From assembly GCF_026016325.1 (NCBI RefSeq), contig NZ_CP087203.1, positions 1,116,001 through 1,180,000 on the forward strand: a stretch of 64,000 bases of DNA. The letters are read 5' to 3'. A program made the position numbers and the translations under genes. The notes under the pieces were generated by a model. It was not told the origin of the DNA and did not search any database. It saw nothing but the letters and a program-made list of their open reading frames with translations. Positions 39,070-53,015 of this stretch are shown piece by piece (the stretch's first letter is position 1; each line of letters opens with the position of its first letter). The DNA is from Pseudomonas sp. B21-056. GTDB lineage: Bacteria > Pseudomonadota > Gammaproteobacteria > Pseudomonadales > Pseudomonadaceae.

Positions 39070-40647
39070 ATGGCCCTCGACATTCACGCTCACCGCATCC
39101 TGATCCTCGACTTCGGTTCCCAATACACCCAACTGATCGCCCGCCGCGTGCGTGAAATCGGCGTGTACTGCGAATTGCACCCGTTCGACATGGATGACGA
39201 AGCGATTCGCGAGTTCGCTCCCAAAGGCGTCATCCTCGCCGGCGGCCCCGAGTCCGTGCACGAAGCCAACAGCCCGCGCTGCCCGCAAGCCGTGTTCGAC
39301 CTGGGCGTACCGGTCTTCGGCATCTGCTACGGCATGCAGACCATGGCCGAGCAACTCGGCGGCAAGGTGGAAGGCTCTGACCTGCGTGAGTTCGGTTATG
39401 CCCGCGTTGATGTGGTCGGCAAGAGCCGCCTGCTGGACGGTATCGAAGACCATGTCGACGCCGACGGCCTGTTCGGCCTGGACGTGTGGATGAGCCACGG
39501 TGACAAGGTCACCAAGATGCCGGAAGACTTCCACATCCTCGCCAGCACCCCGAGCTGTCCGATTGCCGGCATGTTCAGCGACGAGCGTCGCTACTACGGC
39601 GTGCAATTCCACCCGGAAGTGACCCATACCAAGCAGGGCGGCCGCATCCTGTCGCGTTTCATCCTCGACATCTGCGAGTGCGAAGCCCTCTGGACTCCGT
39701 CGAAAATCGCTGAAGACGCCATCGCCCAGGTGCGCGCCCAGGTCGGCACCGACAACGTGCTGCTGGGCCTGTCCGGCGGCGTGGACTCCTCGGTGGTCGC
39801 CGCGCTGCTGCACAAGGCCATCGGTGATCAACTGACCTGCGTCTTCGTCGACAACGGCCTGCTGCGCCTGCACGAAGGCGAGCAAGTGATGGCCATGTTC
39901 GCCGAGAACATGGGCGTCAAGGTGATCCGCGCCAACGCCGAAGAGCAGTTCCTGACCAACCTGGCCGGCGAGTCCGACCCGGAGAAGAAGCGCAAGATCA
40001 TCGGCCGTACCTTCATCGACGTGTTCGATGCCGAATCCTGCAAACTCGACAACATCAAGTACCTGGCCCAGGGCACCATTTACCCCGACGTGATCGAGTC
40101 GGCCGGCGCCAAGAGCGGCAAGGCCCACGTGATCAAGTCCCACCACAACGTCGGTGGCCTGCCGGAAGAAATGAACCTCAAGCTGGTCGAGCCACTGCGC
40201 GAGCTGTTCAAGGACGAGGTCCGTCGCCTCGGCCTGGAACTGGGCCTGCCGTACGACATGGTCTACCGCCACCCATTCCCGGGCCCGGGGCTGGGCGTGC
40301 GGATCCTCGGTGAAGTGAAGAAGGAATACGCCGACCTGCTGCGTCGCGCCGACCACATCTTCATCGAAGAACTGCGCAAGGCCGACTGGTACCACAAGGT
40401 CAGCCAGGCATTCGTCGTGTTCCAGCCGGTGAAGTCCGTCGGCGTGGTCGGTGATGGTCGTCGCTACGCCTGGGTCGTGGCCCTGCGTGCGGTGGAAACC
40501 ATCGACTTCATGACCGCTCGCTGGGCGCACCTGCCGTATGAGCTGCTGGAAACCGTATCCGGACGGATCATCAATGAGATCGACGGTATCTCCCGCGTTA
40601 CTTATGACGTGTCGAGCAAGCCGCCGGCGACGATTGAGTGGGAGTGA
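39070..40647 (+). CDS. guaA: GMP synthase (glutamine-hydrolysing)
   Basis: 525 residues. Converts XMP to GMP using ATP and glutamine. The N-terminal class I glutamine amidotransferase has the cysteine in GICYGMQ and the GVQFHPEV histidine. The PP-loop ATPase domain has [12 protein letters not shown]. The C-terminal dimerisation domain ([11 protein letters not shown]) ends in the conserved PPATIEWE. Confidence 0.98.
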
Positions 40648-40693
40648 TCCTGCGTCCGGCACTGCCCGGCACGATCTAGCAAAAAATGCCCTG

Positions 40694-40717
40694 AAGCCCG
40701 CGTAATTGCGGGCTTTT
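40694..40717 (+). terminator. Terminator of guaBA
   Basis: AAGCCCGC (40694-40701) and GCGGGCTT (40708-40715) followed by TT and a second T-rich stretch, 46 bases past guaA. It marks the left edge of the accessory island. Confidence 0.85.
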
Positions 40718-40785
40718 GGCTTTTTGGGGCTGGCGAATTCCGGCAGCTTTGTGCGACTTGTGTAACTTGCTCCAATGGCTCAGTG

Positions 40786-41433
40786 CTACGAAGCCAGAAC
40801 CTTCAACCCATGCGCGGCGACGAACATGGTGACGGCCGACCGGCAATAGGATTCGATTTCGTTGTCGTCCTCTGCTCTCGCCTCATCGAAGCGCGCGATG
40901 ATCAGGAGGTCGGATCCTTTGAAAAGCGCGGCAAACAAGCGGGCGGACCGGAGAGGGTCGGGCACGTTCAGAAGCGCCTTCGCGTGCAACTGACGCAGCA
41001 GGGCCTCGATTTGGGCGATGACATGGGCGGGGCCGGCTTCGTAATGGAGCTTGCTTAACGACTTTTGATTCGTCCTGTCGGCCATGACCATGGCTTCGAC
41101 ACCGCGGACGTCTGATCTCAATAGCGTGCGAAGCAGTAATGTTCCTACTGCCATCAGCCGATCTTCGACCGAACCGTCGACGCCTTCAAGAAGGGGTTGT
41201 GGTGCAAACAACTGATGGCAGCCGGCCGCGATGGCCGCGCTGAACAGCGCCTCCTTGTTCTCGAAGTGCTTATAGATGCTTAGCTTGGATATCTTCGCCC
41301 GCTGGGCGACCTTGTCCATTGTCGTCGCTTGAAAACCCAATTCCGCAAAAAGTTCGCCCGCAGCGTCGACGATCGTTTGGCCAAGCGCCTCATTGGCGGG
41401 CCGGCCGCGTCGGGCCTGGCTGTTTTCGGTCAT
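40786..41433 (-). CDS. TetR/AcrR-family regulator
   Basis: 215 residues. The N-terminal HTH (about residues 13-60, IVDAAGELFAELGFQATTMD, KISKLSIYKHFENKEALF) is followed by a C-terminal TetR_C-type domain. The start ATG 41433 (MTENSQARRGRP) matches TetR proteins; ribosome-binding site weak. It is divergent from the flavoprotein at 41553, and the gap holds two matching operator-like palindromes, so it probably represses both directions. Confidence 0.92.
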   Translation of the reverse strand: MTENSQARRGRPANEALGQTIVDAAGELFAELGFQATTMDKVAQRAKISKLSIYKHFENKEALFSAAIAAGCHQLFAPQPLLEGVDGSVEDRLMAVGTLLLRTLLRSDVRGVEAMVMADRTNQKSLSKLHYEAGPAHVIAQIEALLRQLHAKALLNVPDPLRSARLFAALFKGSDLLIIARFDEARAEDDNEIESYCRSAVTMFVAAHGLKVLAS

Positions 41434-41442
41434 AAAAATTCC

Positions 41443-41490
41443 AGTACTTGACAGTATTCTAAATCTTGAATTAGGGTACTCCAAAGTATC
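41443..41490. promoter_or_regulatory. Paired operator-like palindromes (TetR site)
   Basis: AGTACT-TGAC-AGTATT (41443-41458) and GGTACT-CCAA-AGTATC (41475-41490) share the same form, TACT-N4-AGTA. They start 32 bases apart, three helical turns. The first overlaps a TTGACA-like box. They lie between the divergent tetR and flavoprotein genes. Confidence 0.6.
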
Positions 41491-41552
41491 TTAAACGTGC
41501 AAGCCAATCGCAGGACGAGCTTCCCTTCACCCATAGCACGGAGCCCATCACC

Positions 41553-42446
41553 ATGAATGACGTCATCATCATCGGCGGCAGCTTTGCCGGTCTCGCCGCC
41601 GCCCTGCAGCTCGGTCGTGCCCGCCGCAACGTCACCGTTCTCGATACCGGCCGGCCCCGCAACCGCTTTGCCGGCCACTCCCATGGTCTGCTCGGCCACG
41701 ATCACAAGCCGCCGCTGGACATCCTCGTCGAGGCGCGGCAGCAGCTGGCGCGCTATCCAACGATCAGGCTGGTCAACGCCAGGGCCGAGAGCGTGTCTGG
41801 CGCAATCGACGATTTCTGCGTCGTCACTGACGATAACGAATGCCTAAGGGCACGTCGCCTGATCCTGAGCTATGGCGTCGTCGACCAGATGCCTGACGTT
41901 CCGGGTTTTGCCGAAAGCTGGGGCACGTCCATTGTGCCCTGTCCCTATTGCGACGGCTTTGAAGTCGCCGGTCGGCATTGGGGCCTCGTCTGGTCCGGCC
42001 CGCAATCGCACAATTATGTCAGGCTGTACCACGATTGGACCGACACGTTGACAGTCTTCGCCGATGGTCACGAGATTCCACCCGATATCCGGGCCGATCT
42101 GACGCGCCGCCATATACCTGTCGTCGATGGCCGGGTCACCGAAATCGCGCAACACGAGGACCGTAGCTCCACCGTCAAGCTCGATACTGGCCCCAATATT
42201 GCGGTCGACATCGTGTTCGCGCATCCGCGCAACAAACCGTCCACAAGCCTGCATGAATCACTGGGCCTCGCCACGGTCAATACGCCCCTCGGTATCGCCC
42301 TCAAGGTCGACGAGCGCCGCGAAACCAGCATACCCGGCATCTACGCCGCGGGCGACCTCGCGAACCCCCTCATGGCTTCGGTCACCCTGGCAACATCGCA
42401 CGGCGCGACGGCGGGTATCTTCGCCCAGCAATCGATGCTGGTTTGA
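41553..42446 (+). CDS. Thioredoxin-reductase-like FAD oxidoreductase (CPYC)
   Basis: 297 residues. FAD-binding GGSFAGLAAALQLG at residues 8-21, the redox pair CPYCDGFE near residue 130, and the C-terminal GIYAAGDLANP for FAD. Length and order match the thioredoxin-reductase fold. The second nucleotide-binding motif expected after CPYC (GxGxxA) is absent: the stretch reads HWGLVWSGPQSHNY. So NADPH use is doubtful and a dithiol oxidase role is possible. Upstream of a methyltransferase and controlled by the divergent TetR. Confidence 0.85.
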   Translation: MNDVIIIGGSFAGLAAALQLGRARRNVTVLDTGRPRNRFAGHSHGLLGHDHKPPLDILVEARQQLARYPTIRLVNARAESVSGAIDDFCVVTDDNECLRARRLILSYGVVDQMPDVPGFAESWGTSIVPCPYCDGFEVAGRHWGLVWSGPQSHNYVRLYHDWTDTLTVFADGHEIPPDIRADLTRRHIPVVDGRVTEIAQHEDRSSTVKLDTGPNIAVDIVFAHPRNKPSTSLHESLGLATVNTPLGIALKVDERRETSIPGIYAAGDLANPLMASVTLATSHGATAGIFAQQSMLV

Positions 42447-42492
42447 GCGCAGATTCCCTTCTGCTGACTACGAAACAGAACGAGGAGATACC

Positions 42493-43356
42493 ATGAAAGA
42501 GCAAAATGCCTATCAGGTCGCCGACTGGAATGGCCAAAGCGGGGAGTACTGGGTCGCCAACCAGGCTCGGCTCGACGCCATGATGGCGGTGTTCGGCCAG
42601 GCCGCGATCGAAGCCGCCGCGCCCGCCACGGGCGAACGCGTGCTGGACGTCGGCTGCGGCGCGGGCGCGTCGAGTCTGGCTCTGGCCGCCCGCGTCGGCG
42701 CGGGCGGCCAAGTGCTGGGCGTGGACATATCCGAACCGCTGATCGGCCGAGCGCGCACGCTAGCGCCGCAGCATACGCCGGCCCTGTTCCAGGTGGCCGA
42801 CGCCAGCTGCGCCGAGTTGCCCGAGGGCGCGTTCGACATCCTGTTCTCGCGTTTCGGGGTGATGTTCTTCGACGATCCGACAGGCGCGTTTGCTCATATG
42901 CGACGCGCGCTCCGGCCGGGCGGGCGGGTCGCTTTCGTCTGCTGGCGCGGCGTGGCCGAGAACGATTGGGTACGCCTGCCGATGGTCGCGATCAAGGACA
43001 TCGTCCCGCTGCCCGCGCCGCCCGGTCCCGAAGCGCCCGGCCCATTCTCGTTCGGCGACCGGGGGCGCGTGACACGTATCCTGACAGCGGCCGGCTTCAC
43101 CGATATCGCTATCGCGCCCTTCGATGCCTCCATCACGTTCGGCAAGGGCGAGATGCGGGACGCGGCGATCGACGATGCGGTGAAAATGGCGTTCGAGGGC
43201 GGCCCGCTGTCGCTTGTGCTCGCTGATCAGCCCGACGACATCCGCACCCGCGCCTGGGCCGCGGTTCGTGCCGCCTTCGCGGGCCTCCCCGGCGAGCGGT
43301 CGGTGATGATCGACGGCGCGGCGTGGATTGTCATGGCACGCAATCCGGCAAACTGA
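42493..43356 (+). CDS. Class I SAM-dependent methyltransferase
   Basis: 287 residues. Motif I is VLDVGCGAGASSLAL, followed by GVDISEPLI (motif post I), FDILFSRFGVMFF and LRPGGRVAFVCW, a complete Rossmann methyltransferase. ATG 42493 has GAGGAG seven bases upstream. It follows the flavoprotein by 46 bases and likely shares its transcript. Substrate unknown; the pairing with a dithiol-oxidase-like protein hints at a sulfur-containing small molecule. Confidence 0.9.
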   Translation: MKEQNAYQVADWNGQSGEYWVANQARLDAMMAVFGQAAIEAAAPATGERVLDVGCGAGASSLALAARVGAGGQVLGVDISEPLIGRARTLAPQHTPALFQVADASCAELPEGAFDILFSRFGVMFFDDPTGAFAHMRRALRPGGRVAFVCWRGVAENDWVRLPMVAIKDIVPLPAPPGPEAPGPFSFGDRGRVTRILTAAGFTDIAIAPFDASITFGKGEMRDAAIDDAVKMAFEGGPLSLVLADQPDDIRTRAWAAVRAAFAGLPGERSVMIDGAAWIVMARNPAN

Positions 43357-43836
43357 CAGAGATTAACAGGGGAGACGCCCCCCGCTCGGTGGGCCCCAGG
43401 AAAGATGCCCGTCTCTCTGTCCCTAGGGGATACCATCTCCTACTGTCCTGGAATCCACGCAACGTCGATTCAGTAGTCGGGGAAGGAAGGGAGCTTGTCC
43501 AGGCCCTTCGCTTTCCGAGCACTGACGAACTCGAGTTCGTTGGTAAATAATCGTTTTTATGCACTTCTTTTGTTTTCTAATCGTTTTTATCCGACCTTAA
43601 CCATTAGCTGACAAGATCAGGAGGGGCGGCCGACCTGGACGTCCTACGTCTGCTCGGTAAGCTGGCGGACGAGCAAGTGTCCGAAAAATCGCTCCAAGAA
43701 GCATGCCGATACGTTTGCTGCGTTGTTACACGCGGCGATCCCTTGCTACGTTGAAAGAAATAGCGCGCACGAATTTGCTCGCTGCGGGACGGCATCTACG
43801 TGGGTGACGTGAATTTCAACCTGGACGGAAGCAGCT
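43357..43836. other. 480-base gap with palindrome and direct repeats
   Basis: No convincing gene. It holds a perfect 16-base palindrome ACGAACTCGAGTTCGT (43525-43540), and a 13-base direct repeat TAATCGTTTTTAT at 43548-43560 and 43578-43590 (30 bases apart). A 43-codon frame without an ATG (about 43608-43742, reading DVLRLLGKLADEQVSEKSL) may be a gene remnant. AT-rich between 43545 and 43600. Probably the promoter region of the oxidase gene at 43837 plus debris. Confidence 0.5.
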
Positions 43837-45018
43837 ATGGAGCGGCGAAAGTTTCTGCAGGCCGGCGGCTTGATCCTGGTCGCCAATGTTCTTTCAGCGT
43901 GTGGGGGCGGGCGGTTTATCGCAACCGAACGCACTCAGGCTCGTTACGGCTCCAATCATTTCTCTCTCCCCGCGCCGATCGCGCCTATCCGGGCCAGCCC
44001 GGATCGCATCATTGCCGTCGGTGTTGGCATACGGCCATTTCGTGCCCAGGGGCCGCGCATCGAGTCGGAGCGTTTGGGCAGCAAGACCCTCATTCACAAC
44101 TACGGGCACGGGGGTAGTGGTTGGTCGCTTTCGTGGGGCGCCGCGGCGTTGGCGGTGGCGCAGGCGAAGATGACCGGTCGGCGCACATTGGCCGTCATCG
44201 GGTGTGGTGCAATCGGGCTGACCACCGCGGTGCTTGCACTGCGCTCCGGCTTCAGCGTTCGCATCTATACCAAGGACCTCATGCCACAGACGCATTCCTT
44301 CCAGGCCAGCGGCGTGTGGACGCCGGATTCGCGGATATGCGCCATCGAGCAGGCAACACCGCAATTCAAACGGAGCTGGGAGATGATGGCGCGTACATCG
44401 TTCAGTCATTTCCAGACACTGGTGGGTTTGCCGGGCGATCCGATCAAGTGGCATGACGGCTATTCGCTGGCGAATACGCAGATTCCAGCCCCGGCGGATG
44501 AGCACAAGGATAGCGAGCCGGAGTATGCCGACCTGAGACCCCTGATCCGCGACTTGTTGCCCGTGCCTGTTGCGTTACGACCCCAAGAGCACCCATTTGC
44601 ACAGGAGGCTCGTTTTTACCGGCAGATGGGCCTCAATATCAATGCCTATTCGCGGCTCCTGCTGGACGACTACTTACGTGGCGGCGGCAAAATGGAGCTC
44701 CGCCAGTTCTACGATCCGGGGGAGTTTTCCGGGCTGCCCGAGGACATCATCGTCAATGCCACAGGTTATGGCGCGCGAGCCCTGTTAGGCGATGAGTCCA
44801 TTATTGCGGTGCGCGGACAGACCGCGCGGCTGATTCCCCAGCCTGAGGTCACCTATGGCATTTCATATCGTGGCGAAAATCTGTTCGTTGCGCCGCGCGG
44901 GGACGGCATTTTGGTACAGGCCCATGCCAAGGGTGATTTTGGCAACCCTGATACCACCCCCGATCCAATAGTTTCCGAGGCTGCCGTTAGACGGCTCGCT
45001 GCGCTTTTTCCGAGTTAG
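43837..45018 (+). CDS. Exported D-amino-acid-oxidase-like protein, permuted
   Basis: 393 residues. The N-terminus combines a twin-arginine-like start (MERRKFLQAGG) with a lipobox, LSAC (Cys22), so a lipid-anchored envelope protein is predicted. The domain order is unusual. IRPFRAQGPRI (65-75) and HNYGHGGSGWSLSWGAA (87-103), which form the C-terminal end of ordinary D-amino-acid oxidases, come before the FAD motif VIGCGAIGLTTA (120-131). The middle motif IVNATGYGARAL (305-316) and VRGQTARL follow, and the protein ends in LAALFPS. The pieces are collinear with DAAO only after rotation. Substrate unknown. Confidence 0.8.
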   Translation: MERRKFLQAGGLILVANVLSACGGGRFIATERTQARYGSNHFSLPAPIAPIRASPDRIIAVGVGIRPFRAQGPRIESERLGSKTLIHNYGHGGSGWSLSWGAAALAVAQAKMTGRRTLAVIGCGAIGLTTAVLALRSGFSVRIYTKDLMPQTHSFQASGVWTPDSRICAIEQATPQFKRSWEMMARTSFSHFQTLVGLPGDPIKWHDGYSLANTQIPAPADEHKDSEPEYADLRPLIRDLLPVPVALRPQEHPFAQEARFYRQMGLNINAYSRLLLDDYLRGGGKMELRQFYDPGEFSGLPEDIIVNATGYGARALLGDESIIAVRGQTARLIPQPEVTYGISYRGENLFVAPRGDGILVQAHAKGDFGNPDTTPDPIVSEAAVRRLAALFPS

Positions 45019-45148
45019 CGTGGTAGATTTACGTACTTGACATTATTCGTACATGTGTCTACTTTGGTCACCATAATATTCCAGTCAATCCGGTTTCATG
45101 CCCTCCGGCATCAGGTATTCCAAAGGCTGGGCTTTCAAAGGTACTGGC

Positions 45149-45721
45149 ATGACAGAGTCAAATTCGACAACGCGAAGGGCCGACATCCTCGACGCCGCCG
45201 GCATGGTCTTCCTGCGCTACGGGTTCAAAAAGACGTCGATGGATGATCTTGCTCGTGCGGCCGGTCTTTCGCGACAAGGGCTGTATCTGCATTTTCCGAA
45301 CAAGGAAGCGCTGTTCGAGGCGATGGTGGTTCGCTCAATGGGTGAACTCAAGAGAAATGCCCAGGAGGCGCTGGCACAAGCGGATGTTGGAATTGCGGAC
45401 CGCCTGCTCAACGCATTCCAAGCGATGCATGGCGGTGCGGTGGGCTCGGATGCCCTCGACGAACTTATCGCCACAACGGCTGCGATGGTTGGGCCAATGA
45501 TGACGGAGCTTGAAGATTCGTTCGTTGCCGATGTCATGCAGGCAATGGAAGACGCAGATGTAGGCCAAGGCTGGGCGTCTGAAGGTATTTCAGTGCAAAG
45601 TCTGGCCGAGCATTTGTCTGCTTCATCGGTCGGTATCAAACATAAGGCGAAGAGCCCAGGCGAATATCGAGAACGGATGCAAGTCGCAGTTCAACTCGTT
45701 TGCCGAAGGCTGCGTTCATGA
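45149..45721 (+). CDS. TetR-family regulator
   Basis: 190 residues. HTH at the N-terminus (about residues 10-60, ILDAAGMVFLRYGFKKTSMD, AAGLSRQGLYLHFPNKEALF), then a helical ligand domain. ATG 45149 (MTESNSTTRRADI) is the family-like start. It precedes an SDR gene on the same strand by 86 bases and follows the oxidase gene by 130, and may regulate either. Confidence 0.9.
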   Translation: MTESNSTTRRADILDAAGMVFLRYGFKKTSMDDLARAAGLSRQGLYLHFPNKEALFEAMVVRSMGELKRNAQEALAQADVGIADRLLNAFQAMHGGAVGSDALDELIATTAAMVGPMMTELEDSFVADVMQAMEDADVGQGWASEGISVQSLAEHLSASSVGIKHKAKSPGEYRERMQVAVQLVCRRLRS

Positions 45722-45807
45722 GGTTGGAATACGTTGCAGGTGGATAGCCTGCGGCTGTCAAAGCGGTTTTTCTGTGCTCAGTGAGCACGACATCAGCGAG
45801 ATCAGTC

Positions 45808-46641
45808 ATGGAAACAATCGTTATAACCGGCGCCAGCGATGGCATCGGGGCGGCCAGTGCACGCCAATTGAAAGCCGCGGGTTACAACATGGTGCTGGTT
45901 GGCCGTTCTCGCACCAAGACGCAAGCGCTCGCACGCGAACTCGATGTCCCGTTTCACATTGCAGACTATACGAGCCTGGCAGACGTAGCACGGCTTGCGT
46001 CCGAACTGAGACAGTATGAGCGGATCGATGTCCTTGCAAACAATGCAGGCGGGGTCATGGGAGGGCGAGAGGTGACTGTCGACGGGTTTGAGAAAACCTT
46101 CCAGGTGAACCACCTTGCGCCTTTCATGCTCACCCATCTGTTGATGGATAAACTCATTGCGAGCCAAGCGAAGGTCATACAGACCGCGAGTGAAGCGGCG
46201 AACGCATTTGGGCAGAATTTCGACATAGACGATCTGAACAACGAGCGGAACTACAAGCCCGACACTGCTTACGGTCACGGCAAGCTCGCCAATATTCTGT
46301 TCACACGAGAACTCGACCGCCGCTACCGTTCCGCAGGGATCTCGGCGGTGGCGTTTCATCCAGGCGTCGTGCGCTCGAACTTTGCCAGCGACACCACCCA
46401 TTTCATGAAATTCGTGTATCACACTCCGCTGAAGTACCTGATCACGATAAGCCCGGAGAAGTCTGCCCACAGACTCGTGAAGCTCGTCCAGGGCAAGCCG
46501 GGTGAGGACTGGCGGCAAGGGGAGGTCTATAACAAGGACCAACCCATGACGGTCGCATTCAAGGACGACGGCAATATTGCACGTAAGCTTTGGGAGTGCA
46601 GTGAACGGTTTCTCGATAGCTGGATTCCGATTCGGCCCTGA
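45808..46641 (+). CDS. SDR-family oxidoreductase
   Basis: 277 residues. Cofactor motif ITGASDGIGAASARQL (residues 5-20), NNAGG (about 83-87), and an active-site region reading TAYGHGKLAN with Tyr/Lys spaced YGHGK. It resembles the retinol-dehydrogenase/WW-oxidoreductase-like SDRs (long C-terminal half with VAFHPGVVRSNFA). An in-frame GTG 27 bases earlier is a weaker start. Follows the TetR gene; substrate unknown. Confidence 0.9.
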   Translation: METIVITGASDGIGAASARQLKAAGYNMVLVGRSRTKTQALARELDVPFHIADYTSLADVARLASELRQYERIDVLANNAGGVMGGREVTVDGFEKTFQVNHLAPFMLTHLLMDKLIASQAKVIQTASEAANAFGQNFDIDDLNNERNYKPDTAYGHGKLANILFTRELDRRYRSAGISAVAFHPGVVRSNFASDTTHFMKFVYHTPLKYLITISPEKSAHRLVKLVQGKPGEDWRQGEVYNKDQPMTVAFKDDGNIARKLWECSERFLDSWIPIRP

Positions 46642-46729
46642 GTCTTGAGGTAAATCCCTCAGTGCAAGAGCGTTCTATACTCACCGACATCCCGCTACGA
46701 CGGTTGACCACCGCATTGAGGAGGACATG

Positions 46730-47137
46730 ATGAGCGATACTCGACGACTCATGGCTTTGCGCATCGTCTTGATTGTTGTCGGCCTGATCTCCGTGTTCGC
46801 GATCTGGCCACTGATGATCCTGTGGCCGTCCGGCTGGACATGGCACAGCGGTCATTCCGACTACCCACTGATGATCGTCGGCCTCTACGCGACTCTTGGC
46901 GTGTTCCTGTTGAGGGCTTCGCGTGATCCGCTGAAGCACCTGAGCCTGATCTGGTTCACGGTGTGGTCGAGCGTCGTGCATGGCGCGATCATGGCCGTGC
47001 AGTCCTTTGGTGTCGGGATGGACGGAATGAACCATTACGGCCACTTGCTTGGCGATGTGCCCGCGTTGTTCGTTGTCGCGGCGGCGCTGGCGTTCTTCAC
47101 ACCCCGTGGCGAGAAAGCGCGTTTGCTGGCGGGTTGA
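46730..47137 (+). CDS. DUF6632-like small membrane protein
   Basis: 135 residues with about four membrane helices (ALRIVLIVVGLISVFAIWPL; PLMIVGLYATLGVFLL; LSLIWFTVWSSVVHGAIMAV; VPALFVVAAALAFF). The order SDYPLMIVGLYATLGVFLL...IWFTVWSSVVHGAIMAVQ matches the DUF6632 family as I remember it. Two adjacent ATGs are possible; AGGAGG spacing favours 46730. Role unknown. Followed by a terminator. Confidence 0.75.
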   Translation: MSDTRRLMALRIVLIVVGLISVFAIWPLMILWPSGWTWHSGHSDYPLMIVGLYATLGVFLLRASRDPLKHLSLIWFTVWSSVVHGAIMAVQSFGVGMDGMNHYGHLLGDVPALFVVAAALAFFTPRGEKARLLAG

Positions 47138-47158
47138 TCCTTGCGTGCGGTGTACCTG

Positions 47159-47192
47159 AAAAGCCCTGTGGATAACCTCTCCAGGGCTTTTT
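47159..47192 (+). terminator. Terminator after the small membrane protein gene
   Basis: AAAAGCCCTG and CAGGGCTTTTT around a 13-base loop, 22 bases past the stop. Confidence 0.85.
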
Positions 47193-47313
47193 CATTTTGG
47201 CGCCCTGCGTGTCCTGGTCTCTGACGGCAAAAGCGTCCCGGTACCGTCACCTTTCGCTACGATTCGGCCCTCATCGGTGCGCCGAGAATGCCTATCATCC
47301 AGAGGAAGGATCA

Positions 47314-47331
47314 GGTTGTCATTTGACAACC
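47314..47331. promoter_or_regulatory. Perfect 18-base palindrome, candidate autoregulatory operator
   Basis: GGTTGTCA-TT-TGACAACC lies 31 bases upstream of the HicA-like gene. TTGACA (47323-47328) inside its right arm is a consensus -35, with AATACT 17 bases downstream (47346-47351). That would place the start point close to the ATG, so the message might be nearly leaderless. A palindrome over the promoter is the usual sign of toxin-antitoxin autoregulation. Confidence 0.6.
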
Positions 47332-47362
47332 AGGAAAGTCATGCGAATACTGGAGACCACTG

Positions 47363-47638
47363 ATGATTCGTCCCTCGCATCCGAAAAAAGAAGTGGAAGA
47401 AGCGCTGAGGCATGCCGAAGCGTTGGGGTGGCGCGTAGCGGTCGGCGGCAGTCACGCCTGGGGGCGGGCTTATTGTCCCTACAACGACGAGGAGTGTCGT
47501 TGCGGTGAGTTCTGTATCACATCGATATGGAGCACGCCGAGGAACCCTGGCAATCATGCGCGAGCATTACGACGCGTCGTGGACAATTGCACTACCCATT
47601 GCAATTGTTGCGAGGCTGATGACGATGCTGAGGAGTAA
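47363..47638 (+). CDS. HicA-like small protein, candidate toxin
   Basis: 91 residues. The N-terminal segment VEEALRHAEALGWRVAVGGSHAWGRAYCP has the helix-strand-GSH layout of HicA-type dsRNA-binding toxins (there, a histidine after GS is catalytic). The C-terminal half NPGNHARALRRVVDNC mimics the second helix. Cysteine-rich: CRCGEFC and CNCC. The gene overlaps nothing and the partner HTH gene starts four bases after it. Weak similarity only; it is not a confirmed toxin. Confidence 0.65.
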   Translation: MIRPSHPKKEVEEALRHAEALGWRVAVGGSHAWGRAYCPYNDEECRCGEFCITSIWSTPRNPGNHARALRRVVDNCTTHCNCCEADDDAEE

Positions 47639-47642
47639 GACA

Positions 47643-48167
47643 ATGGAATATATCTTTACCCTGAAATATCAGCTTGCTGACGATGACCGTACCTCGGATG
47701 AACTGGTGGAGCGGCTGGGTGCAGCAGGCTGCGACGATGCCCTGGTAGGCATAGGGCAGCCGGGAAGGCTGGCTCTGGAGTTCACGCGTGATGCTCCTGA
47801 TGCGATTAAGGCCGTGCTTAGCGCTCTGGGCGATGTCCGTCGCGCGGTGCCCTCGGCCAGACTGATTGAGGTCGCTCCTGATCTGGTCGGGTTAACCGAT
47901 GTAGCCGAGATCGTCGGCGTGTCCCGGCAGAACATGCGCAAGTTGATGTTGGCCCACCCGAGCAGCTTTCCGACGCCCGTACACGAGGGCAGTGCGTCCA
48001 TCTGGCACTTGGCGGATGTTCTGATCTGGCTGCAGAGCAAGGGCAGTTATTCGCTTACCAGGAACGTGTTGGATGTGGCTCAGGCAGCTTGGCAGATCAA
48101 CGTTGCGAAAGAAGGCCGGCGTTTACCAGGCTTGGACTCTAAAGAGTTGGGAGCTTTGGCCGAGTAA
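47643..48167 (+). CDS. HTH DNA-binding partner protein
   Basis: 174 residues starting MEYIFTLKYQLADDDR (ATG 47643). A small alpha-beta N-terminal domain (about 1-80) with a hydrophobic core is followed by an HTH (LTDVAEIVGVSRQNMRKLM, about 96-114) and a C-terminal tail. The start lies four bases after the HicA-like gene's stop, implying coupling. Likely DNA-binding antitoxin/repressor acting on the palindrome at 47314; inferred. A longer in-frame reading is less likely because it overlaps the upstream gene. Confidence 0.75.
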   Translation: MEYIFTLKYQLADDDRTSDELVERLGAAGCDDALVGIGQPGRLALEFTRDAPDAIKAVLSALGDVRRAVPSARLIEVAPDLVGLTDVAEIVGVSRQNMRKLMLAHPSSFPTPVHEGSASIWHLADVLIWLQSKGSYSLTRNVLDVAQAAWQINVAKEGRRLPGLDSKELGALAE

Positions 48168-48227
48168 CAGCTTGGGTGATTGCTGTTTTGGCTGAGCGCA
48201 GTCGTTGAAGATTGCTGAGCAATCTCT

Positions 48228-51017
48228 TTGTTGGCCATCGTAATTAATTTTGATAACACGGACGTATCCAGGCTTTGCACAAGCCTGAGCAAGGGATATA
48301 TGGTTTCTATCAGGGTGCGCGGTGAGGATAAGACTCGGCAGATCAGCGACTGGTCAATCAAGGGTGATAGGAGCGACGCACTCTTGCTCGTCTGTCATTT
48401 TCCTTCCGGCAAACGTTTCTCCAGTCCGCTTGAAGAATGTGAGGTCGCCCCTACCCGAGTGCTGAGTAACAAACTTCTGCGCACGAAGGGCAGTGCGGTG
48501 CTTCACCCCATCGAGAAAGCTGCGATCTACGGTGAGAAGTACGCGGTTGTCCAGTATTCCGGAAGTACGAAAAATTACGTGTTCAAGCTGAGCGCTATCG
48601 AGTTTGTCGCGCCGACGAGGATCAAGGACGAACCGCTCTTCCACTATTTCCTTTCTGTTGCCCATGGCCGGGTTGATCAGGCCGCGAAGCCAGCGGACAA
48701 GGTGATCGCCGAAAATGTGCTGCGCCAACTGAACGCAATACCTTCATGCTCAGATACGGCCTTGCACGCCTACTGTTCCAGACAGAACGGGCAGCAGGCA
48801 CAAGCGGGAGATTTCATTTTTCCTTTTGGCATCAATGAAAGCCAGCTGCAAGCCGTTGAGCGGGCCTTCACGTCGCAGATCAGTTTGATCGAAGGCCCTC
48901 CCGGCACTGGCAAGACCCAGACCATTCTGAACATCATCGCTAATATCCTGTTGCGTGGGAAAACGGTGGCGGTGGTGTCCAATAACAATTCGGCCGTGGC
49001 GAATGTCTGCGAAAAGCTGGGTAAGTCTGGGCTCGATTATCTGGTCGCCGAGTTGGGTAGCACTGAGAATCGCGAGGCATTTTTCGCCAATCCGCGTCCT
49101 CGCCCCTCAGCGCTTCCCGAAGCCACGCCTTCGATGGAGCGGATCCAGGTTGTCCTGCAACAGCTCAAGGGGTATCTGAGTACCCGCAATGCTGTGGCGC
49201 AGTTGCAGATAGAAATCAATGAGCTGGAGGTGGAGCGTCGCTACCTGCAGCAGTGGCAGCAGGATAACGGCGTACAGATACCGCCCCTGGATAAATTCAA
49301 GCTGACCCCGCAAAAGTCCGCAGACATGATGGCCTATCTGGCCCACCTGGGAGGTCGTCGCGTCAGGATCAAGGACAGAATCGAACTGCTGTTCAATTTC
49401 AGGATTCTACGCACCCGGCCGTTCGACAACTGGGAAAAGCGTCAGTCAATGTTCTATGGCCTGCAGCTCCATTATTACGACAAGGCGCTACAGGAAAAAA
49501 ATGTGCTGTTGAAAACCCATCAGCAGTCTTTGCGACTCGGCAATTACCAGGCGCTGCTGGATGAACTGACCAGCATTTCGATGAAATACCTCAAGCAGCA
49601 CCTGCATCGACAGGTGTCGACCCCCGAACCCTTTGAGGCCAAGACCTACAAGCGCAAATTTGATGAGTTCGTGAAACGCTATCCGATTATTTCCAGTAGT
49701 ACGCATTCGATCATCAACTCGCTTCCAGCCGGGGCGATGCTCGACTACGTGATTATCGACGAGGCCTCGCAGCAGGACATTGTCCCGGGAGTATTGGCGT
49801 TGGGTTGCGCGAAGCAACTGATCATTGTTGGCGACAGGAAACAACTGGCGCATATCCCTGCAAAGCTGGGCCTGGCAGCGCCCCAGGATAAGGAGCACTA
49901 CGATTGCGAGACATACAGCCTGCTTGATTCGTGCGTCCGTGTGTTCAACGGTTCCATTCCGACGACGCTGCTCAAGGAGCACTATCGCTGTCACCCGCGG
50001 ATCATTCAGTTTTGCAATCAGCAGTTTTACGACGACCAATTGGTCCCGATGACGAGGGACAACGGGGAAAACCCTCTGTCGCTGCTGGTCACCGCCAAGG
50101 GTAACCACACGCGAAAGACCACTAACCTTCGGGAACTGGATTCGCTGTTGGCGACGCTGGAAGGTGGGGGCGAAAGCGCATGGGAGGGGGAGGATGGCAG
50201 AGGCTTCATTGCACCATTCAGGGCTCAGGCCGCTCTTTCGAGCACGCTTTTGCCGGCTGACTTCGTCAATGACACCGTGCACAAGTTCCAGGGGCGCGAA
50301 TGCGATGAGATCGTTTTTTCCACCGTCTTGGACAAAAAGAGTACTACTCCGAAGTTCCTGACGTTCGTGGATGATCCTCGTATGGTCAATGTAGCTGTGT
50401 CTCGAGCTAAAAATCGATTTACCTTGGTCACGGGAGATGATGTCTTCACGGCGAACAACGGGCATATCGCAGCGCTGGTGCGCTACATCGAATATTACGC
50501 AGAGGAAAGACAGGTGCATCGTGCGCCCGTGATCTCGGCCTTCGATCTGCTTTACGCGGAGTACGATCAATCGCTCGAACGCCTCAATCAGCGATTGCGG
50601 CGGGAAGATTCCGATTTCAAGTCAGAGCGGATCATTGCGCAGATCCTGCGTGAGACGCTGGAACGGGAGGTCTGCCGGGGGCTCATGTTCCACTCACAGG
50701 TTCCGTTGAAGCAAGTGGCCTCAACCACCAACGCGAGCCTGACCCCGCGGGAGCTGGAGTTCATGGGCAACGGCTCCAGTTGTGATTTCGTGCTCTATTT
50801 CAAGGTTGGGAAAACACCGCTGGGCGTACTGGAAGTTGATGGGGCCAGCCATGACACGCCGGAGCAGGCGAGACTCGACGCCTTGAAAGACAGCATCCTG
50901 GACAAGTGCGGTATCCCTTTACTGCGTTTGCGTACCGTTGAAAGCCGCATTGAACAACGGGTCGCGGCATTTGTGATGCAGTGGGCAACCAGTGCCTCAA
51001 CGGACTCTGTGGGGTAA
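48228..51017 (+). CDS. SF1 helicase with C-terminal DUF2726-like domain
   Basis: 929 residues. All SF1/UPF1-like motifs are present in order: GPPGTGKTQT (~222-231), IIDEASQQD (~509-517), VGDRKQL (~534-540), HYRCHP (~585-590), FIAPFRAQ (~660), VHKFQGRECDEIVFSTV (~684-700) and VNVAVSRAKNRFTLV (~720-734). A coiled insert lies about 305-480. The C-terminus (~800-905) has CDFVLYFKVGKT, GVLEVDGASHD and KCGIPLLRLR, resembling DUF2726 and restriction-like PD-(D/E)XK folds. Start TTG 48228 is uncertain; ATG 48300 has AAGGG upstream. It follows the HTH gene by 60 bases. Role in phage defence is possible. Confidence 0.8.
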   Translation: MLAIVINFDNTDVSRLCTSLSKGYMVSIRVRGEDKTRQISDWSIKGDRSDALLLVCHFPSGKRFSSPLEECEVAPTRVLSNKLLRTKGSAVLHPIEKAAIYGEKYAVVQYSGSTKNYVFKLSAIEFVAPTRIKDEPLFHYFLSVAHGRVDQAAKPADKVIAENVLRQLNAIPSCSDTALHAYCSRQNGQQAQAGDFIFPFGINESQLQAVERAFTSQISLIEGPPGTGKTQTILNIIANILLRGKTVAVVSNNNSAVANVCEKLGKSGLDYLVAELGSTENREAFFANPRPRPSALPEATPSMERIQVVLQQLKGYLSTRNAVAQLQIEINELEVERRYLQQWQQDNGVQIPPLDKFKLTPQKSADMMAYLAHLGGRRVRIKDRIELLFNFRILRTRPFDNWEKRQSMFYGLQLHYYDKALQEKNVLLKTHQQSLRLGNYQALLDELTSISMKYLKQHLHRQVSTPEPFEAKTYKRKFDEFVKRYPIISSSTHSIINSLPAGAMLDYVIIDEASQQDIVPGVLALGCAKQLIIVGDRKQLAHIPAKLGLAAPQDKEHYDCETYSLLDSCVRVFNGSIPTTLLKEHYRCHPRIIQFCNQQFYDDQLVPMTRDNGENPLSLLVTAKGNHTRKTTNLRELDSLLATLEGGGESAWEGEDGRGFIAPFRAQAALSSTLLPADFVNDTVHKFQGRECDEIVFSTVLDKKSTTPKFLTFVDDPRMVNVAVSRAKNRFTLVTGDDVFTANNGHIAALVRYIEYYAEERQVHRAPVISAFDLLYAEYDQSLERLNQRLRREDSDFKSERIIAQILRETLEREVCRGLMFHSQVPLKQVASTTNASLTPRELEFMGNGSSCDFVLYFKVGKTPLGVLEVDGASHDTPEQARLDALKDSILDKCGIPLLRLRTVESRIEQRVAAFVMQWATSASTDSVG

Positions 51018-51141
51018 TCCGGCCGCAGCAATGGCGGGTGACGCAACAATCCTTCACTTAATCTTTCTCAATTGCAGGTGTATCGTATTTGCCTTTTGCG
51101 GGCCCACCGGTTCGCCGCGGATTCAATAGGTGGTTGCACTC

Positions 51142-52518
51142 ATGTCGTTTACCCGTCGCCAAATACTCGGTGGCCTGGCCGGTCTTGTTGTCGTGGGCGT
51201 TGGCGCGGGAGGCGCATCGCGGTATTGGTTGGGCAAGCGGGCGGATGCCGAGGCTGGGCACGACTATGAGTTGATTGCGGCGCCTTTGGACGTCGAGCTG
51301 GTGGCCGGGCACAAGACCCAGGCTTGGGCCTTTGGGCCATCGGCGCCGGGCACTGAGTTGCGGGTGCGTCAGGGCGAGTGGTTGCGGGTACGCTTCATCA
51401 ATCACCTGCCGGTCGCCACCACCATCCACTGGCACGGCATCCGCCTGCCGCTGGAGATGGACGGAGTGCCGTATGTCTCGCAACTGCCGGTGCTGCCGGG
51501 TGAATACTTCGATTATAAATTCCGCGTGCCGGACGCCGGCAGCTATTGGTACCACCCCCACGTCAACAGCAGCGAAGAGCTGGGACGTGGGCTGGTGGGG
51601 CCGCTGATCATTGAAGAGCGCGAGCCCACCGGCTTCAAATACGAAAAGACCCTGAGCCTTAAGAGCTGGCATGTGGATGAGCAGGGCGAGTTTGTAGAGT
51701 TCAGCATCCCTCGCGAGGCGGCCCGTGGCGGGACGGCCGGGCGGTTGTCGACCATCAACGGTGTGCCGGAGGCGGTGATCGACCTGCCGGCCGGGCAGAT
51801 CACCCGGGTGCGCCTGCTCAACCTCGACAATACCCTGACCTACCGGATCAACATTCCCGGGGTCGAAGCGCAGATCTATGCCCTGGACGGCAATCCCATC
51901 GAACCGCGCCCGCTGGGCAAGGAATACTGGCTCGGCCCGGGCATGCGCATCTGCCTGGCGATCAAGGCGCCGGCGGCCGGGGAAGAGCTGTCGTTGCGCA
52001 ACGGCCCGGTGCGCCTGGGCACCCTGCGTTCAGTGCCCAACAATGATGCGCCGCCCCAATGGCCGCCCGCGTTGCCGGCCAACCCGGTGTCGGAGCCGGA
52101 CCTGGCCAATGCCGAGAAACTCAACTTCAATTTCGAGTGGGTCGGTTCGGTGTCGGTTGACACGGACAACGGCAAGCCACCGAGCCTGTGGCAGATCAAC
52201 GGCAAGGCCTGGGACATTACTGACAAGACCTGCGCCGACCGGCCGATTGCCACGCTGAAAAAGGGCCAGAGCTATATTTTCGAATTGAAGAACATGACCC
52301 AGTACCAGCATCCGGTCCATTTGCACGGGATGAGCTTCAAGGTGATCGCGTCCAACCGCCACAAGGTCATTCCGTATTTCACCGACACCTACCTGCTGGG
52401 CAAGAACGAGCGGGCGCAGGTGGCATTGGTGGCGGATAACCCGGGTGTGTGGATGTTCCACTGCCATGTGATCGACCACATGGAAACCGGCCTGATGGCC
52501 GCCATCGAGGTGGCGTGA
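51142..52518 (+). CDS. Multicopper oxidase family protein
   Basis: 458 residues. A twin-arginine signal (FTRRQILGGLAG) predicts export folded. Three cupredoxin domains carry the copper clusters: HWHGIRLP, WYHPHVNS, HPVHLHGMSF, and HCHVIDHMETG, complete for T1, T2 and T3 copper. In P. aeruginosa a gene of this class lies between guaA and tadA, so this is the original neighbour of tadA. ATG 51142. Substrate unknown, possibly a metal or phenolic compound. Confidence 0.93.
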   Translation: MSFTRRQILGGLAGLVVVGVGAGGASRYWLGKRADAEAGHDYELIAAPLDVELVAGHKTQAWAFGPSAPGTELRVRQGEWLRVRFINHLPVATTIHWHGIRLPLEMDGVPYVSQLPVLPGEYFDYKFRVPDAGSYWYHPHVNSSEELGRGLVGPLIIEEREPTGFKYEKTLSLKSWHVDEQGEFVEFSIPREAARGGTAGRLSTINGVPEAVIDLPAGQITRVRLLNLDNTLTYRINIPGVEAQIYALDGNPIEPRPLGKEYWLGPGMRICLAIKAPAAGEELSLRNGPVRLGTLRSVPNNDAPPQWPPALPANPVSEPDLANAEKLNFNFEWVGSVSVDTDNGKPPSLWQINGKAWDITDKTCADRPIATLKKGQSYIFELKNMTQYQHPVHLHGMSFKVIASNRHKVIPYFTDTYLLGKNERAQVALVADNPGVWMFHCHVIDHMETGLMAAIEVA

Positions 52519-53015
52519 TGCGCCAGATTCGCCCCGCCCGGATCATCGACCGCAGCCGCGACCAGGACTTCATGCGCGAAGCCCTGGCGCTGGCCGCGCA
52601 AGGGGCGGCCCTGGGCGAGGTGCCGGTGGGCGCGGTGCTGGTGCAGGACGGCGAGATCATCGGGCGCGGCTTCAACTGCCCGATCAGCGGCCACGACCCC
52701 AGCGCCCATGCGGAAATGGTCGCCATCCGCGCCGCCGCCCAGGCCGTGAGCAACTATCGCCTGCCCGGCAGCACCCTCTATGTGACGCTCGAACCGTGCA
52801 GCATGTGCGCCGGCCTGATCGTCCACTCCCGCATCGCCCGGGTCGTCTACGGCGCCCTGGAGCCCAAGGCCGGCATCGTGCAGAGCCAGGGGCAGTTTTT
52901 CAGCCAGGCATTTCTGAACCATCGGGTGATGTTCGAGGGGGGGGTGTTGGCGGAGGAATGCAGCACGGTGCTGAGCGAGTTCTTCAAGGCGCGCAGGGCC
53001 AAACCGTCAGACTAA
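52518..53015 (+). CDS. tadA: tRNA-specific adenosine deaminase TadA
   Basis: 165 residues. Converts A34 to inosine in tRNA-Arg(ACG). Zinc and catalytic residues: PSAHAEMVAI and the PCSMCAG pair. Its ATG shares one base with the multicopper oxidase stop (TGATG). Essential in most bacteria. Confidence 0.97.
   Translation: MRQIRPARIIDRSRDQDFMREALALAAQGAALGEVPVGAVLVQDGEIIGRGFNCPISGHDPSAHAEMVAIRAAAQAVSNYRLPGSTLYVTLEPCSMCAGLIVHSRIARVVYGALEPKAGIVQSQGQFFSQAFLNHRVMFEGGVLAEECSTVLSEFFKARRAKPSD

Follow-up and report, generated by a model that had tools for sequence, protein, structure and literature searches.

A protein encoded by Pseudomonas sp. B21-056 is almost certainly a natural circular permutant of the D-amino acid oxidase (DAAO) fold. 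Its gene is an uninterrupted open reading frame (ORF) of 393 residues on the plus strand (positions 43837-45018) of the 64,000-nucleotide stretch analyzed here, which spans positions 1,116,001 to 1,180,000 of contig NZ_CP087203.1 and is called the window below. Taken as a whole, it is on balance probable that this protein is a flavin adenine dinucleotide (FAD)-binding enzyme that is exported by the twin-arginine translocation (Tat) system, is probably a lipoprotein in this strain, and oxidizes small D-amino acids in the periplasm. The gene, the order of its segments, its relatives, the predicted fold, and the conservation of the carboxylate-binding Arg are the supported parts of this statement. 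We infer the Tat route, lipidation, FAD binding, activity, substrate, and electron acceptor.

Residues 118-393 match positions 2-299 of the 353 in the Pfam DAO profile (PF01266; E-value 4e-23). The score of 82.9 bits, against a gathering score of 27.9, places the protein in the DAO superfamily, and the match is far beyond chance. Every part of a classical DAAO (EC 1.4.3.3) is present, but the order is rotated. Residues 57-109 correspond to residues 319-371 of the Rasamsonia DAAO (chain 7ct4; domain i-Evalue 2.5e-10), and residues 113-374 correspond to residues 4-248 of chain 1c0i (domain i-Evalue 1.7e-7). The same exchange is seen with a profile of the ordinary order built from 23 DAAO-type sequences (20 Nocardia-type bacterial proteins, L120 from Burkholderia glumae, Rasamsonia 7ct4, and pig 1an9), where residues 57-109 align with positions 263-316 and residues 119-392 with positions 4-257. 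Rotated in silico, the window protein becomes a single domain covering profile positions 4-316, and its best-domain score rises from 80.1 to 132.5 bits. All 60 permuted sequences compared match this profile in at least two pieces, with the profile end coming first; rotation increases their median best-domain score from 89.7 to 120.4, with a gain in 47 of the 60. The protein is composed of two homologous, complementary blocks in exchanged order that form one collinear match once rotated. The profile and PDB comparisons bear out the original prediction, which was made from the DNA alone and had proposed a rotation of about 110 residues joined through TGRR. A collinear alignment to DAAO, named beforehand as evidence to the contrary, was looked for and did not hold.

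The motifs that define the order begin at residues 3 (RRKFL), 65 (IRPFRAQ), 87 (HNYGHGGSGWSLSWG), 113 (TGRR), 120 (VIGCGAIG), 306 (VNATGYGARAL), 326 (RGQ), and 386 (RLAALFPS), with Cys22 within LSAC (residues 19-22); each lies where it had been reported. R66, P67, H87, Y89, G90, and H91 do not vary across 48 aligned sequences, including that of the window. The predicted fold has a pLDDT (predicted local distance difference test) of 84.9, and model residues 114-393, the only part superposed, overlay residues 1-269 of DAAO and D-aspartate oxidase (DASPO). Around the junction, the model contains a helix at 99-111 and a strand at 117-121, and the last helix of the 117-393 block forms the new C-terminus. 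Foldseek TM-scores, normalized by query length, reach at most 0.56, as expected if a sequential aligner covers the larger block only. DAAO and DASPO lead the VIA-align lists for both models. Table 1 gives the coordinates of the segments and of the two genes that matter for the context.

Table 1. Features of the permuted gene and its surroundings in the window.
Feature	Position	Strand	Basis
guaA, left border of the variable spot	39070..40647	+	ORF; homologue in P. fluorescens ISL-33 (L002) with Pfam GMP synthase domains; block collinear with L002 at 95%
Gene for exported (predicted), circularly permuted DAAO-fold protein, 393 aa	43837..45018	+	ORF, Pfam DAO, profile and PDB order comparison, model
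Predicted Tat-type signal peptide, RRKFL at residues 3-7, ending at lipobox LSA-C22	43837..43902	+	Sequence
Linker, residues 23-56, start poorly predicted	43903..44004	+	pLDDT below 50 at residues 21-35
Block equivalent to the C-terminus of ordinary DAAOs, residues 57-112, with IRPFRAQ (Arg283 equivalent R66) and HNYGHGG	44005..44172	+	Profile, 7ct4
TGRR junction linking the former C-terminal helix with the former N-terminal strand	44173..44184	+	Model, motif spacing
Block equivalent to the N-terminus and middle of ordinary DAAOs, residues 117-393, with GCGAIG dinucleotide fold, VNATG, and RGQ	44185..45015	+	
DUF6632 protein gene, beside the permuted gene in P. fluorescens ISL-33 as well	46727..47137	+	Pfam; 87% nucleotide match

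The permuted group is large. A search for relatives scored at least 6972 proteins at an E-value of 0.001 or better among at least 7999 candidates; ordinary DAAOs may be among the 6972. The best 120 proteins were listed, the first being the window's own, which leaves 119 others. By pattern, HxYGHGG precedes GxGxxG in 119 of the 120, and the remaining protein (P0047) is permuted too, the pattern having been misled by a match inside its signal peptide. Homologues sharing the order, which the original prediction had proposed to look for, are therefore found in all 119 other listed proteins. The distance from HxYGHGG to GxGxxG is 33 residues in 106 of the 120. Among the best 80 of at least 565 confirmed stretches, the named genera include Xanthomonas, Stenotrophomonas, Luteimonas, Dyella, Solimonas, Pelomonas, Roseateles, Paucibacter, and others.

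Judged by their sequences, the permuted proteins form two branches, one with a Tat-type export signal and one that is leaderless. The first is held by Xanthomonas, Dyella, Roseateles relatives, and Alphaproteobacteria, and the second by rhizobia, Actinomycetota, and metagenomes. A profile of the exported branch (A1) finds strong matches in 20 of 398 sampled genomes of the phylum (E-value 1e-20, the window's genome counted), in 13 of 289 in the class of genome G259, probably Alphaproteobacteria, and in 1 of 274 in the window's class, which is the window's own genome. At an E-value of 1e-30 or better, the matching genomes number 59 of 150 for the order that includes G259 and 2 of 148 for that of G210. 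From 39 of these 59 genomes and one of these two, a further 40 loci were drawn as a second set; 37 are permuted by pattern and the remaining three on reading of the sequence. Within the window's genus, a strong match occurs in two of 249 genomes: that of the window and G434, whose protein (L160) pairs with a Dyella protein in the tree, away from that of the window. The leaderless branch was first seen through plasmid matches in Nonomuraea, Rhizobium, and Bradyrhizobium. Among 120 listed proteins close to that of Bradyrhizobium, the pattern shows the permuted order in 110 and leaves 10 unassigned. A looser pattern shows it in three of the ten; another five are shortened (198-291 aa), and two are full-length with GxGxxG at residues 84-88 and no match to the HxYGHG pattern. 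An RRxFL motif occurs in one of these 120.

An unrooted tree was built from 83 rows after rotating the permuted rows to the common order, with L154 left out. All 23 ordinary rows fall on one side of a single branch (support 99/97), opposite the permuted rows; long branches lead to the three ordinary rows that are most distant. Two rows labelled exported (L158 and L159) sit inside the leaderless branch. The tree is consistent with one rotation event. Export is unlikely to be the sole cause of the permutation, since the leaderless branch is permuted too.

The N-terminus of the window protein, MERRKFLQAGGLILVANVLSAC, fits the consensus for a Tat signal plus lipobox, with RRKFL at residues 3-7 and LSAC at residues 19-22. 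Of the 119 other listed relatives, 115 carry an RRxFL-type motif within their first 60 residues, in support of the signal peptide with RRKFL that the original prediction had described. The lipobox that it had added to this signal stands in part: the window protein carries the strict pattern, but it is the only one of the 120 listed proteins to do so in the signal region, and a lipid anchor is rejected as a general trait of the nearest relatives. The strict lipobox also occurs in P. fluorescens ISL-33 (L002), as an identical LSAC, and in 12 of the 40 more distant loci of the second set, where a looser pattern finds 19. A Cys lies 8-30 residues past RR in 14 of the 120 listed proteins and in 31 of the 40 second-set loci. 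In the exported branch, the Tat-type signal looks general and the lipobox patchy. The window protein is predicted, with high confidence, to be exported, and Cys22 is probably lipidated in the window strain. The lipid anchor is the weakest part of the overall statement.

The residue equivalent to Arg283 is R66, and this position is Arg in all 83 aligned rows. All three glycines of GxGxxG are likewise kept in every row, and RGQ and HxYGHGG in most or all of them, with the Arg of RGQ replaced by Lys in 17 of the 21 leaderless rows. Tyr228 of pig DAAO is a substrate-binding residue. This position is Tyr in 22 of 23 ordinary and 19 of 21 leaderless rows, and in 8 of 39 rows labelled exported, although alignment gaps nearby make it less sure. 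The earlier description of the protein as D-amino-acid-oxidase-like applies to the fold and to the carboxylate-binding Arg but not to the Tyr228 position, which is Phe (F350), so that the substrate may differ from that of DAAO. The exported branch has probably kept carboxylate binding and changed its pocket. Small D-amino acids of the D-alanine type are a tentative proposal for the substrate, one that falls slightly short of being favored. D-Alanine leads the candidates because of the fold, the conserved Arg, and neighboring D,D-carboxypeptidase genes.

These neighbors come from sets of loci in which genes were called with a simple longest-ORF rule, and errors in some neighbors and start codons are to be expected. 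From a first set of 94 loci, 12 without a recognized focal ORF were dropped, leaving 82. From a larger set of 114, three were dropped (L066, L137, and L145), leaving 111 with at least one duplicate, as L113 and L141 are probably the same plasmid. A homologue of the S11 D-Ala-D-Ala carboxypeptidases lies directly upstream of the permuted gene in ten Burkholderiales loci (L039, L043, L050, L058, L061, L065, L068, L070, L077, and L080), two of which (L050 and L058) are cut by a contig end. Nine of the ten loci are in the set with the nine Pfam S11 matches, and L058 was found by phmmer only. Among 55 hand-chosen proteins, comprising 54 of 93 operon-like neighbors and one more, Pfam identified S11 in nine, the beta-lactamase family PF00144 in eight, the BlaR1 M56 domain in seven, and the BlaI repressor in three. 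A PF00144 gene is directly downstream in Dyella, Luteimonas, and Paucibacter loci and two genes upstream in a Kozakia locus. Across the 111 loci, homologues of these cell-wall-type genes account for 21 of 185 genes at distance 1, 5 of 191 at distance 2, 1 of 356 at distances 3-4, and 0 of 430 beyond. The link represents roughly four or five separate lineages. The link is lineage-specific, and the counts in the second set of loci, given below, reject cell-wall genes as universal partners.

The BlaR1-type M56 peptidase is fused to the S11 carboxypeptidase in L043 (5783-10417), L068, and L077 by Pfam, and in L061 and L065 by homology; a BlaI-type repressor gene stands ahead of the fusion in L043, L061, and L065. 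In several Burkholderiales loci, the next gene past the permuted one encodes a chemotaxis receptor on the other strand (L061 and L062 by Pfam; L064, L068, L078, and L079 by clustering). A cytochrome c gene is downstream of the permuted gene in L035 and L114, and ORFs with CxxCH occur elsewhere nearby in five further loci. Other neighbors include a prolyl-oligopeptidase-family gene (L114, L132, and L135), an adjoining hslV-like gene (PF00227; L092, L144, and L157) with an hslU-like AAA gene following in L092, ScpA and ScpB genes (L134), and DUF1993 (L132 and L135). On Rhizobium and Bradyrhizobium plasmids (L116:2527-6753 and L117:2363-6690), the leaderless gene is flanked by genes for an FAD-binding oxidoreductase and a thiamine pyrophosphate (TPP) enzyme; the flanking pair in Rhizobium has Pfam BBE and TPP domains. 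This three-gene set might be a small biosynthetic or catabolic unit.

Under the proposed mechanism, the segment that ends ordinary DAAOs, with the carboxylate-binding Arg, the HNYGHGG loop, and the last helix, would have been relocated to the front of the protein. A short turn would connect the moved helix to the first Rossmann strand, leaving the folded core and the FAD site unchanged, and the new termini would fall in the loop that joins the last helix of the 1-269 part to the strand preceding the Arg. The protein would be exported by the Tat system in folded form with its FAD and, in the window strain, would face the periplasm on a probable lipoprotein anchor. There it may oxidize small D-amino acids, yielding a 2-oxo acid and ammonia; the first candidate is D-alanine set free by cell-wall trimming. 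O2 would accept the electrons, or perhaps a neighboring cytochrome c in some lineages.

Several observations weigh against this account as a whole. Rotation does not raise the best single-domain score in 13 of the 60 permuted rows. The lipobox is missing from all 119 other listed relatives. The Tyr of pig DAAO is replaced in the window protein and present in only a minority of the labelled-exported rows, and this loss, together with the patchy neighborhood, speaks against the D-alanine guess. In the second set, none of the 140 genes at distance 1-2 is a cell-wall gene, and one of the 222 farther out is. No cell-wall neighbor was found in Xanthomonas loci or among the eight window genes scanned around the permuted gene. 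In the distance tally, seven of the homologue matches are simply the queries, and the loci lack independence, many being close relatives. Cytochrome c, present in 2 of 82 loci, is rejected as a universal partner.

In a less likely alternative, the protein is a true permutant acting on another substrate class (for example, D-aspartate or N-substituted or peptide-derived amino acids) as a dehydrogenase that feeds cytochrome c rather than as an oxidase. The variation at the Tyr228 position in the exported branch (F, S, Y, and N), the downstream cytochrome c genes, and the nearby prolyl-oligopeptidase-family genes agree with it, but cytochrome c neighbors are rare, and the D,D-carboxypeptidase and BlaI/BlaR1-type neighbors in Burkholderiales loci point to D-alanine. 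A permutant that has kept the fold as a non-catalytic periplasmic binding or sensing protein is improbable: 31 of the 39 labelled-exported rows have no Tyr at this position, but the 39 rows keep GxGxxG, the Arg, H-x-Y-G-H-G-G, and RGQ (R in 37 and K in 2; G in 39; Q in 39).

The order of the blocks has also been weighed against explanations that do without a rotation. Since the ordinary-order profile matches the two blocks separately, they could be two gene pieces fused in reverse order by convergence or domain recruitment. However, the blocks are complementary, with no duplication of the profile core in the rows shown, the break is at an identical position in the exported and leaderless branches, and the tree of rotated sequences resolves, which makes such a fusion very improbable. 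An assembly inversion, a frameshift, or a sequencing artefact, also named beforehand as a way to overturn the rotation, was tested and is rejected; nothing was found in its favor, the reading frame is intact, and the permuted order is shared by the 119 other listed proteins, by many genera, and by the P. fluorescens protein of L002. A natural permutant of one rotated gene, probably acting as a Tat-exported FAD amino acid oxidoreductase, is the preferred reading.

A broader scenario can be sketched, although it is doubtful as a whole. A single ancient permutation would have founded a major unrecognized half of the bacterial DAAO family. In one branch, the gain of Tat export would have given rise to an oxidase or dehydrogenase of D-alanine in the periplasm. 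This enzyme would, in Paucibacter and other Burkholderiales, be wired to a beta-lactam-sensing operon (BlaI, the BlaR1-S11 D,D-carboxypeptidase fusion, the permuted DAAO, and a beta-lactamase-family hydrolase), coupling cell-wall damage to the burning of released D-Ala. The other branch would have stayed leaderless and, in two rhizobial plasmids, in an operon with the FAD-binding oxidoreductase and the TPP enzyme. The protein also offers a testable example of how a cofactor-binding Rossmann fold can accommodate new termini. If the protein is an active periplasmic D-amino acid oxidase, it would revise where bacterial DAAOs are thought to occur, suggest that D-Ala set free from peptidoglycan is oxidized, and offer naturally exported enzymes for D-amino acid sensing and biocatalysis.

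In the window, the permuted gene sits between guaA and a block that starts at 51042. In P. fluorescens ISL-33, guaA, the permuted gene, the DUF6632 gene, and this block are contiguous, and this 94%-identical record (L002) has the permuted order as well. Three extra blocks of the window are missing in ISL-33: TetR/reductase/methyltransferase genes, TetR/short-chain dehydrogenase genes, and a Pfam-unmatched gene with a superfamily 1 (SF1) helicase (DUF2726). Positions 40647-51042, downstream of guaA, form a variable spot in which the GC content drops to 0.53-0.58 at 45-51 kb. The permuted gene looks like acquired cargo of this spot, because only two of the 249 genomes of the genus are positive. 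Beyond it, a multicopper oxidase (51130-52518) and tadA (52449-53015) were named from sequence reading alone. A repeat of about 100 bases at 53024-53128 matches both strands of L002 (4255-4352) and L160 (9439-9546) and resembles a dispersed intergenic repeat.

Within the open-access literature searched, the group of permuted bacterial proteins is undescribed; no report of a naturally permuted DAAO was found there, subscription papers being mostly outside its scope. Two recent papers on the detection of circular permutation, searched for terms on oxidases, flavin, FAD, and DAO, contain none (PMC12667903; PMC11757225), and term searches of three others found no mention of permutation (PMC9844085; PMC4699246; PMC6131576). 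In four papers that contain both kinds of term, circular permutation relates to sensors, a software table, fluorescent proteins, and a carbohydrate-binding module (PMC7503967; PMC13359353; PMC7801447; PMC2739507). A 2022 paper puts the number of identified bacterial DAAO genes at just over 10 and attributes this to the difficulty of finding them by homology (PMC9844085). Rotation would add to this difficulty.

The window protein was compared with DAAO, DASPO, DadA, and ThiO. DadA (NCBIfam NF001933) gives a weak match to residues 64-107 (E-value 0.02; 13.9 bits against a cut-off of 383), and the ThiO glycine oxidase (NCBIfam TIGR02352) matches residues 119-166 below its cut-off (32.3 against 250.8 bits). 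DASPO (6rkf and 9vpf) differs from the window protein in order and export. Pig and human DAAO (1an9, 1kif, and 2du8) share with it the 1-269 fold, GxGxxG, VN(A/C)TG, RGQ, the Arg283 equivalent, and the HNYGHGG loop. Unlike them, the window protein is rotated by about 110 residues, has a Tat-type signal and a lipobox, and has Phe in place of Tyr228. The Nocardia-type bacterial DAAOs have GxRPxR and YGHGGxG, which the 2022 paper describes as conserved in bacterial DAAOs (PMC9844085), but their GxGxxG stands first. That paper confines the known bacterial DAAO genes to one group, printed as Acinetobacteria and taken here as Actinobacteria, whereas many of the permuted relatives found here belong to Pseudomonadota.
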